Positions 22,590-27,035 of a stretch of DNA of 64,000 nucleotides are shown one piece after another (the first letter of the stretch is position 1; the number at the start of each line of letters is the position of its first letter). This DNA comes from Xiamenia xianingshaonis (GTDB lineage Bacteria > Actinomycetota > Coriobacteriia > Coriobacteriales > Eggerthellaceae). The notes under the pieces are model-generated. The model searched no databases. It had not been told where the DNA came from and saw nothing but the letters and a program-made list of their open reading frames with translations. A program made the position numbers and the translations under genes. The stretch is from NCBI RefSeq assembly GCF_017945865.1, contig NZ_CP072829.1, positions 1 through 64,000 on the forward strand, read 5' to 3'.

Positions 22590-23065
22590 CCTGGTGGGGA
22601 GGTAGTCGGTCGAGGCTTGCATCAGGTTGGTTAGTAGCTGGTGAAAGCTGTCAACTAGATAGGTTAGCACTTGGCCGGGGCTAGCTGTTGTTGGTTGGTG
22701 CTTGCAGGTGGCTGGCATTGGATCGGTCAGTACCTGGACGAAGCTTGCACCAGGCCGGTCAGCACCTGGTCAAGGCCGACATTAGACAAGCCGGCACCTG
22801 GCTGGGGCTAGCGGCAGGGCGGATAGCACCTGGTTGGAGTGAGTTAATTAAGGCTAACACTCTACGGAGGCTGGCTGTTGTCAGTTAACGCTTGTTCGAG
22901 GTTAGAGTCAAATAGGGCAGCGCTTGGACGAAGCCGGCATTAGACAAGCCGGCACCTGGTTGGGGTTTGCCCTGGTCGGTTAGTAGCCGGTTGAAGCCAG
23001 CGCCAGGCCGGTTGGAACCTGGTTGGGGCTGGCGGTGTTGGCTAGCAGCCGCTCGACACTGCAAG
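22590..23065. repeat. Degenerate G-rich minisatellite after gltA
   Basis: No gene is seen between gltA and the tRNA array (22564-23903). This part holds many imperfect copies of a roughly 35-40 base phrase built from CGGTCAGCACCTGG, CGAAGC, GGCATTAGACAAGCCGG and TGGTTGGGGCT. GACATTAGACAAGCCGGCAC or a one-base variant occurs twice (near 22780 and 22945). All copies are on the same strand. No protein-like reading is preserved across copies. Confidence 0.7.
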
Positions 23066-23330: not shown

Positions 23331-23455
23331 TTAGAAGTGTATATAATCGACTAAAAACTGCATAAAGCGGCATAAATCAATAACCTGATGGAATGCTCTC
23401 GGTTGAAGTGTCTCTCAATAGGCAAACACCGACGGACTGAGGCATTTTCACCTGC

Positions 23456-23903
23456 CGCGAATTCCCCTCTCGGGTTCGAATCCCTGCGAACGAAAGCGCC
23501 CTCAAGCTGCAAGCAACTGGGGGCGCAAGTACGTCTGGCGGAGGAAGTAGGATTCGGGAAACCTTCCTTCGGAAGATTTCCAGGCCTCGTCGCAAGCTCC
23601 TCGGCCGAATTCGCTACGAAAGCTTCGCTTTCGCTTTACGCGAATTCCCCTCTCGGGTTCGAATCCACGGAAACGAAAAACATCCCCGGCAGAAAGTCTA
23701 CCGAGGATGCGAATATACCTGGCGGAGGAAGTAGGATTCGGGAAATCTGCTTCGCAGATTTCCAGGGTTCGTCGCAAGCTCCTCACCCGAATTCGCTACG
23801 AAAGCTTCGCTTTCGCTTCACGCGAATTCCCCTCGCGGGTTCGAATCCTTTCGTCATGAAAAACATCCCCGGCAGAAAGTCTACCGGGGATGCAAGAACA
23901 ACC
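23456..23903. repeat. Tandem array of interrupted tRNA-Ser(UGA) 3' ends
   Basis: Read on the minus strand, the tRNA-Ser gene is followed by units of 184 bp (23717-23900 and about 23533-23716) plus a partial third (23456-about 23532). Each unit repeats the last bases of the tRNA, including CCA (TGGCGGAGGAAGTAGGATTCG on the plus strand), then a 115-bp insert bounded by GGATTCG and CGAATCC (for example 23734-23848), then a copy of the terminator hairpin. The insert contains hairpins GGAAATCTG/CAGATTTCC and CGAAAGC/GCTTTCG within GAATTCGC/GCGAATTC. The same insert occurs in the tRNA-Ser(GCU) array at 26.3-26.9 kb. Confidence 0.9.
23859..23892 (-). terminator. Terminator of tRNA-Ser(UGA)
   Basis: Minus strand CATCCCCGG, 11-base loop, CCGGGGATG, then TTTTT. 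A second copy with one stem mismatch is at 23676-23709 inside the next repeat unit, and a different hairpin (GCGCCC...GGGCGC, 23496-23526) takes its place in the outermost unit. Confidence 0.88.
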
Positions 23904-23991
23904 TGGCGGAGGAAGTAGGATTCGAACCCACGGAACCTTGCGGCTCAACAGTTTTCAAGACTGCCGCCTTCAACCACTCGGCCATTCCTCC
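23904..23991 (-). tRNA. tRNA-Ser (anticodon UGA)
   Basis: An 88-base minus-strand gene with acceptor GGAGGAA/TTCCTCC, discriminator G and encoded CCA. The anticodon loop CTTGAAA gives TGA. A long variable arm, typical of class II tRNA-Ser, and the T-arm with GGTTCGAATCC are present. The intact copy is the first of a tandem series of 3' ends. Confidence 0.95.
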
Positions 23992-26322: not shown

Positions 26323-26872
26323 AATGGCGGAGAGCTGGGGATTCGGAAAATCTGCTTCGCAGATTTTCAGGGTTCGGCGCAAGCGCCTCACCCGAATTCG
26401 CTAAAAACGCTTCGCGTTTTCTTGACGCGAATTCCCCTCTCGGGTTCGAATCCTCTGAAATGGCCTTGGCAATGCGAAGGTATCGGTTGTAGCAAAGAAT
26501 AATTAGAATGGCGGAGAGCTGGGGATTCGGAAAATCTGCTTCGCAGATTTTCAGGGTTCGTCGCAAGCTCCTCACCCGAATTCGCTACGAAAGCTTCGCT
26601 TTCGCTTGACGCGAATTCCCCTTGCGGGTTCGAATCCATGAAATGGCCTTGGCAATGCGAAGGTATCGGTTGTAGCAAAGAATAATTAGAATGGCGGAGA
26701 GCTGGGGATTCGGAAAATCTGCTTCGCAGATTTTCAGGGTTCGTCGCAAGCTCCTCACCCGAATTCGCTACGAAAGCTTCGCTTTCGCTTGACGCGAATT
26801 CCCCTTGCGGGTTCGAATCCATGAAATGGCCTTGGCAATGCGAAGGTATCGGTTGTAGCAAAGAATAATTAG
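26323..26872. repeat. Tandem array of interrupted tRNA-Ser(GCU) 3' ends
   Basis: Three units of 184, 183 and 183 bp begin at 26323, 26507 and 26690 with AATGGCGGAGAGCTGGGGAT, the 3' end of the adjacent tRNA-Ser on the minus strand. Units 2 and 3 appear identical throughout. In each the T-arm is interrupted after GGATTCG by a 115-bp insert (for example 26523-26637) almost identical to that in the tRNA-Ser(UGA) array. The outer 68 bp of each unit (ending with AATAATTAG) is specific to this locus and also flanks the real tRNA. Unit 1 differs from the others in the hairpin bases, with paired changes (AAAACGC/GCGTTTT in place of CGAAAGC/GCTTTCG). Confidence 0.95.
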
Positions 26873-26874
26873 AA

Positions 26875-26965
26875 TGGCGGAGAGCTGGGGATTCGAACCC
26901 CAGATACCCTTGTGGGGTATACTCGCTTAGCAGGCGAGCACCTTCGGCCTCTCGGTCAGCTCTCC
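26875..26965 (-). tRNA. tRNA-Ser (anticodon GCU)
   Basis: A 91-base minus-strand gene: acceptor GGAGAGC/GCTCTCC, discriminator G, encoded CCA; anticodon loop CTGCTAA gives GCT; long variable arm TACCCCACAAGGGTA; T-arm CTGGG GTTCGAATC CCCAG. It is the intact copy at the head of the 26.3-26.9 kb array. Confidence 0.95.
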
Positions 26966-27035
26966 GCAGTAAATCATGCAGTTTGCTATGATACCGCGAG
27001 TGGAAAAAAGTTGCAAGGAAAAGGATCAGCGAAAC

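Follow-up and report, generated by a model that had tools for sequence, protein, structure and literature searches.

tRNA 3′ ends are favourite docking sites of prokaryotic mobile DNA. In the 64,000 nucleotides of Xiamenia xianingshaonis analysed here (the window), a tRNA-Ser(GCU) gene is followed by further copies of its own 3′ end, and the locus raises the question of whether the sequence interrupting these copies is a mobile element, a structured RNA or the product of a known type of recombination.

Two tRNA-Ser genes in the window are followed by arrays

The tRNA-Ser(GCU) gene (26875-26965; ARAGORN and Rfam tRNA), with its CCA encoded, anchors three head-to-tail units of 183-186 bp that extend on its 3′ side to about position 26324, all features of the array being on the minus strand. 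Each unit consists of a spacer of about 54 nt, a foldable element of 115 nt and the last 21 nt of the tRNA (C56 to CCA), the final 7 nt of the element being also the first 7 nt of this tail. The initial annotation had described tandem tRNA 3′ ends cut by a 115-bp insert, with two of three units identical. Each unit indeed ends in C56-CCA, interrupted as described, and the identical pair is the tRNA-proximal one (26875-26692 and 26691-26509); the distal unit (26508-26325) is 93.5% identical. Spacer 1 (26821-26874) spans the 54 nt from the CCA to the element and, like the other spacers of this array, contains no recognisable terminator. Element copy 1 (26706-26820; 138.9 bits with the covariance model R1, defined below) folds into a closing stem, GGATTCG/CGAATCC, enclosing four hairpins, H1 to H4, of which H1 has the form CCC-GCAA-GGG and H3 contains two tandem G-A/A-G motifs. 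Tail copy 1 (26692-26712) is identical to the tRNA at 21 of 21 positions and shares its first 7 nt with the closing stem. Spacer 2 (26638-26691; repeat family D3) and element copy 2 (26523-26637) are identical to their counterparts in unit 1, and tail copy 2 (26509-26529) again matches at 21 of 21 positions. The distal unit comprises spacer 3 (26454-26508), the diverged element copy 3 (26339-26453; 136.2 bits with R1) and the tail copy that ends the array (26325-26345). Element copy 3 carries paired changes in H2 and, in H3, a change of AGC..GAC to CGC..GCC; the exchange of AAAACGC/GCGTTTT for CGAAAGC/GCTTTCG, previously proposed to preserve the hairpin, is a real paired change among these copies. 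Beyond what had been described, the same T-arm half recurs, inverted, at the other end of the insert; insert and tail together therefore form a closed multi-hairpin structure. Many independent genomes have arrays of this structure, at the same tRNAs and at others, with sequence that differs by species, which makes an assembly artefact, considered earlier, very unlikely.

A second array of this type, diverged in sequence, lies 3′ of tRNA-Ser(UGA) (23904-23991; ARAGORN), also on the minus strand, and covers 23904-23446 with two full units and one truncated unit. Between this tRNA and the first element, the spacer holds an intrinsic-terminator-like hairpin (23863-23893), which has been duplicated along with the unit (23680-23710; repeat family D13). 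The first element (23734-23848; 139.2 bits with R1) has its tail copy at 23740-23720 and the second (23550-23666; 130.7 bits with R1) at 23556-23536. The third is a truncated left end (23446-23483, detected with BLASTN) comprising the inverted T-arm, H1 and the start of H2. The window also contains short degenerate direct repeats with a period of ~32-64 bp (GGTCAGCACCTGG..) at 22600-23050, 3′ of a citrate-synthase-like gene; these are unrelated to the tRNA arrays.

Anatomy of the repeat unit

Across the copies compared, the repeat unit of about 180 bp is made up of a core, a C56-CCA tail, a spacer that usually has a terminator, and an inverted copy of the host T-arm. The core is 90-140 bp long and contains three to five hairpins, usually four. 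H1 usually has a GNRA-type or GRYRA loop, H2 is long with an asymmetric internal loop (GTYAAG / A), H3 has tandem G-A/A-G mismatches in many copies, and H4 is often capped by GAA or GCA. Two subtypes exist besides the usual core, one with a short H2 and one with an extra hairpin.

The closing stem, P0, matches each element to its host. In its 5′ strand, C56-C62 of the adjacent tRNA appears as the reverse complement, and its 3′ strand is the start of the repeated tail; the element accordingly opens with GGATTCG (the C56-C62 reverse complement) and AACC (the complement of G52-T55) and ends with CGAATCC, where the tail starts. Elsewhere in the home genome the 5′ strand tracks the tRNA, reading GGACTCG at Gly(CCC), GGGATCG at Ala(TGC) and GGGTTCG at Lys(TTT) and Ala(GGC). 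P0 matches its own tRNA at 7/7 positions in 109 of 128 copies; with tRNAs permuted (2000 runs), such matches averaged 49.5 and never exceeded 63. Where the host tRNA has a non-consensus T-arm, 36 of 48 copies match it exactly and 0 of 48 carry the consensus stem. Stems are adapted to eight T-arm sequences, and the sampled set includes 20 kinds of host tRNA, with no isotype preference apparent. The C56-CCA repeat is conserved at 21/21 or 20/21 positions in most copies, and the junction is constant, at or no more than one base from C56. A longer inverted copy of the tRNA 3′ end probably existed in the past, because the inverted match reaches 12-15 nt in about one sixth of Eggerthellaceae copies (with stems of 14-15 bp in some) and, in genomes belonging to another Coriobacteriales family (f10), runs almost as far as the CCA end.

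Distribution among tRNA genes and genomes

Two covariance models were used, R1 from eight units and R2 from 33 diverse copies. The home genome (G000; one contig, 2,263,463 bp) yielded 14 BLASTN matches and 14 R2 matches, every one just 3′ of a tRNA and on the same strand, and 10 of the 47 tRNA genes bear elements while 37 do not. The genome-wide BLASTN search suggested in the initial annotation thus placed every copy immediately 3′ of a tRNA. Two further tRNAs in this genome have remnants, a solo inverted T-arm at Gly(TCC) (L296) and a truncated core at Phe (L306), which are likely excision or decay scars. The congener G002 has arrays at the same tRNAs and at additional ones, with copy number varying at orthologous tRNAs (3 vs 2, 2 vs 3, 1 vs 3), and two close relatives of the home genome, G001 and G003, have no copies.

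An insertion sequence encoding a 372-aa Mutator-family transposase (Pfam Transposase_mut), with the end GGCATATAGGCAAAAAAGTGTGTAAGG, was also observed (L279:1501-2834, L277, L283 and L320). Of its four home-genome copies (1712085, 2245779, 2212060 and 1284769), three lie shortly 3′ of tRNAs; the remaining one is about 2 kb beyond the tRNA-Lys(CTT) array. One copy disrupts an array core, and copies in G002 also adjoin arrays; it may be that this insertion sequence targets these tRNA-linked structures.

R1 matches were found in 56 of 138 genomes of the family, representing 25 of 48 genera. A called tRNA lies upstream on the same strand in 128 of the 139 matches examined, the first unit usually beginning 45-77 nt past the CCA; the remaining 11 have no upstream tRNA called, and several of these are near contig ends or have a tRNA-like tail. 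Copies at random sites, which would have spoken against a link to tRNAs, were not seen, as each copy that could be judged is 3′ of a tRNA on the same strand. A pattern search gave a called tRNA no more than 400 nt upstream in 60 of 67 matches, the named organisms including Slackia, Parvibacter, Gordonibacter pamelaeae, Eggerthella sinensis, Hugonella and Collinsella bouchesdurhonensis. A pattern match in Anaerolineaceae (L200) was rejected as a chance match inside coding sequence. R2 matches were found in 132 of 299 genomes sampled from the Coriobacteriales, and beyond this order in one genome only, G520. The two matches in G520 are weak (L332:380-1000 and L369), and L332, on inspection, consists of a tRNA-Ser and a repeated tail without CCA, the spacer not being duplicated; horizontal transfer or a deeper origin may be responsible.

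Covariation and the nature of the structure

The hairpins covary strongly, with a covariation score of 0.395 compared with 0.139 after shuffling (0 of 500 shuffles reach the observed value). Paired cells amount to 91.2% (75.2% shuffled), and double changes occur in 31 of 41 pairs (20.4 shuffled). In the sense strand, with one fixed G-T pair left out, 66 G-T and 34 A-C cells occur among about 4,400, a wobble frequency of about 1.5%. In the H2 stems, whose arms are near-perfect palindromes, G-T and A-C cells are equally rare (8 vs 9). An RNA structure covarying to this degree is expected to show many more G-U intermediates. The near-absence of wobble pairs despite strong covariation therefore suggests that the structure acts as DNA-level palindromes rather than as a processed RNA. 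The paired changes could also stem from template-switch correction of palindromes. The earlier proposal that structure is selected is upheld as far as the covariation it called for is concerned, but covariation alone is no proof of selection, and the rarity of wobble fits DNA palindromes. The accompanying suggestion of a processing-related RNA array is not supported, as terminators, where they are recognisable, separate the tRNA from the element, in the UGA array and at other loci. A search against Rfam 15 gave no match at E<=1 except tRNA; sub-threshold results were plastid matches overlapping tRNA and one DicF match elsewhere.

Gain, loss and spread

At the orthologous tRNA-Ser(GCU) locus in 17 close genomes of one genus of family f10 (g65, probably Collinsella), nine sites are filled and eight are precisely empty, with matching flanks. 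The empty site reads tRNA-CCA-terminator-GCTGGGGATTCGAACCC and then flank; the filled site has this same sequence followed by core, tail, terminator and inverted T-arm before the same flank, an insert of 190-191 bp. In the more distant species inspected (L357, L358, L361 and L362), both the unit and the inverted T-arm are missing from this locus. Across the nine filled genomes, identity is 98.5% in the core, 100% in the tRNA, 90.8% in the next gene and about 80% in the spacers and intergenic sequence, and spacer haplotypes are shuffled between genomes. The combination of frequent absence with conservation above that of the next gene suggests that the core has spread, been homogenised or, where present, come under strong selection. 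Such precise presence and absence in close relatives, together with the exclusive position behind tRNAs, supports the initial annotation's tentative reading of a non-autonomous tRNA-targeting element.

Six g65 genomes have, at this same tRNA-Ser(GCU), an insertion of about 1.3 kb with a TM2-domain gene behind a core-like left end (L363:1970-3300; L350-L355), perhaps a cargo-bearing relative of the element. In G265 (L363:493-1611) the position immediately upstream of this tRNA is occupied by an inserted AAA-ATPase gene, and several other g65 genomes have an insertion of similar size there.

In the home genus, core identity is 0.841 at the same tRNA between species (G000 and G002) and 0.682 between tRNAs of one genome; because cores are thus orthologous by tRNA, movement to new tRNAs is rare there. 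In two other genera, g61 and g13, cores from one genome resemble each other more than they resemble cores at other tRNAs in other genomes (0.826 vs 0.783 and 0.852 vs 0.793). Core subfamilies specific to a tRNA across genera were considered and rejected, as sharing the same tRNA adds no similarity (0.650 vs 0.645). From these two results it would therefore seem that over long times cores switch tRNAs and adopt the new tRNA's ends.

Comparison with known systems

Like the REP/BIME sequences moved by RAYT/Y1 transposases, the element is short, extragenic, palindromic, apparently non-autonomous and sometimes clustered. REP sequences are tagged hairpins of 20-40 bp dispersed intergenically, whereas the present core is 90-140 bp long, with three to five hairpins in about 115 bp, and its copies are confined to tRNA 3′ ends, with a closing stem that copies the host tRNA. 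A RAYT/Y1 partner was rejected: Y1_Tnp (PF01797) is absent from the home genome, and across 138 genomes about 30 element carriers were found among the 71 positive for it, with about 29 expected. A reverse transcriptase partner (retron, group II or DGR) was likewise rejected, PF00078 being absent from G000-G003 and present in 30 of 138 genomes with no association with carriers. No partner enzyme was thus found among the families searched, namely Y1/RAYT transposases and reverse transcriptases.

Small mobile repeats, MITEs among them, have been reviewed (PMC2229807). The element resembles MITEs in being small, non-coding and polymorphic for presence, but its termini change with the host tRNA instead of forming fixed terminal inverted repeats, no autonomous partner transposon was seen among the selected families searched, and in place of a short target-site duplication it duplicates a functional tail and terminator of ~75-90 bp. 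With prophage and ICE attachment sites, classically recognised by direct repeats of the tRNA 3′ end (PMC9897764), it shares the tRNA 3′-end direct repeat bounding an insert and the regeneration of the tRNA in all cases; however, only a hairpin core, plus an inverted T-arm, lies between the repeats, with no integrase-bearing element or relics of one. The likeness to integron attC arrays, in tandem cassettes, a foldable palindromic site and matched outer arms of ~7 bp, is one of geometry only, as the element targets tRNA T-arms, its cassettes are tRNA tails and its arm sequences differ. In Methanopyrus kandleri, a palindromic motif of ~20 bp is found ~10 bp past about half of the tRNA genes (PMC5217627); this too is a palindrome behind many tRNAs, but no repetition of the tRNA tail was reported there.

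Phage and viral collections gave no match to the element, and no prior description was found in the open-access literature, subscription papers and preprints being outside the scope of the search. Because there is no Rfam family, no phage or viral match and no open-access description, and because the defining traits of REP/RAYT, MITEs and attachment-site remnants are lacking, we rate the element, relative to the open-access literature, as a new kind set apart from all three. To our knowledge, no small repeat lives only at tRNA 3′ ends and rewrites its ends for each tRNA.

Discussion

The reading that we favour, with about even confidence, is a previously undescribed family of non-coding, non-autonomous mini-elements, restricted to tRNA 3′ ends in gut bacteria of the Coriobacteriales and recombining at the T-arm. 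The anatomy, the tRNA exclusivity, the host-matched stem, the covariation, the tandem copy-number changes, the precise presence and absence and the conservation of the core above the next gene are direct observations. Site-specific recombination at T-arm halves, recognition at the DNA level and a selfish character are what we infer from them. In the proposed mechanism, a unit would insert at the T-loop (T55/C56), regenerating a complete tRNA and leaving a tail copy behind; the tRNA would always be restored because the unit carries tail and spacer/terminator. Recombination would most likely take place at the T-arm halves, one forward and one inverted, on either side of the core, and a recombinase acting in trans would most likely recognise the hairpin core itself in its folded or cruciform DNA form. 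Arrays could grow and shrink by repeated events or by unequal recombination between tail-plus-spacer repeats, and loss through those repeats would leave a solo inverted T-arm, as at Gly(TCC).

Empty sites can, as a counterpoint, arise by plain direct-repeat recombination and be refilled by strain exchange with no dedicated recombinase. This leads to the least unlikely alternative, in which structured DNA came to lie behind a tRNA by a single capture in each lineage and was then, without dedicated mobility, shaped by homologous recombination or gene conversion of the tail/terminator repeats, strain exchange and template-switch correction. The orthology of G000 and G002 cores at a shared tRNA, flanking repeats of sufficient length for RecA-type loss, the shuffled g65 spacer haplotypes and the near-perfect H2 palindromes, with the 8 vs 9 balance of G-T and A-C that template-switch correction would yield, all agree with such a history, which nevertheless leaves unexplained the 20 kinds of host tRNA with re-matched stems, the likeness of cores between tRNAs within some genomes (0.826 and 0.852, vs 0.783 and 0.793 between genomes) and a core more conserved than the adjacent gene. 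Somewhat less probable again is a functional non-coding RNA or DNA structure maintained for the host, for example a regulatory RNA tied to tRNAs, or a barrier 3′ of strongly transcribed tRNA genes. Strong covariation and core motifs conserved across the order, four-base H1 loops that are nearly all of GNRA type, a core near-invariant in g65 and the mild sense-strand excess of G-T over A-C (66 vs 34, the fixed G-T pair excluded) are consistent with a host function. The structure is often dispensable, however, being missing from 8 of 17 relatives at one locus, from G001 and G003 and from 37 of 47 home tRNAs, and terminators commonly upstream of the element, wobble in only ~1.5% of cells and the lack of an apparent isotype preference argue in the same direction.

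We consider it improbable, by analogy with integrons, that the T-arm would correspond to attI, that inverted T-arm, core and next tail would form an attC-like folded site, and that tail and terminator would be a cassette, which a tyrosine recombinase would mobilise through its action on a folded single strand. Such an arrangement would account for the 7-bp matched outer arms around a variable structured core, the tandem cassettes, the precise gain and loss, the constant C56 junction and the TM2-domain gene behind a core-like left end at the same locus in six genomes, but the cassette content is normally just a tRNA tail and terminator, and the outer arms differ from the integron R-box consensus. 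Debris of tRNA-integrating prophages or ICEs, suggested by the classical direct repeats (PMC9897764), is very improbable given a covarying core of 90-140 bp, a host-matched inverted T-arm, duplicated terminators, near-equal units, occurrence in 132 of 299 genomes and no match in phage or viral collections. A further scheme, about as doubtful in our view as a host function, is a tRNA-anchored cassette system in which a recombinase would act on the folded single-stranded core, exchange strands at any tRNA's T-arm and copy the T-arm half into the termini; it would be integron-like, with the universal T-loop as attachment site and occasional gene cargo (TM2).

The element would account for spurious tRNA fragments and hypothetical ORFs in these genomes, and the filled and empty pairs in close relatives make the question of mobility directly testable. 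Mobility of the element would imply a novel recombination activity able to read both the T-arm and folded DNA; without mobility, the element shows how recombination by itself can copy palindromes and tRNA tails and maintain the match between them.
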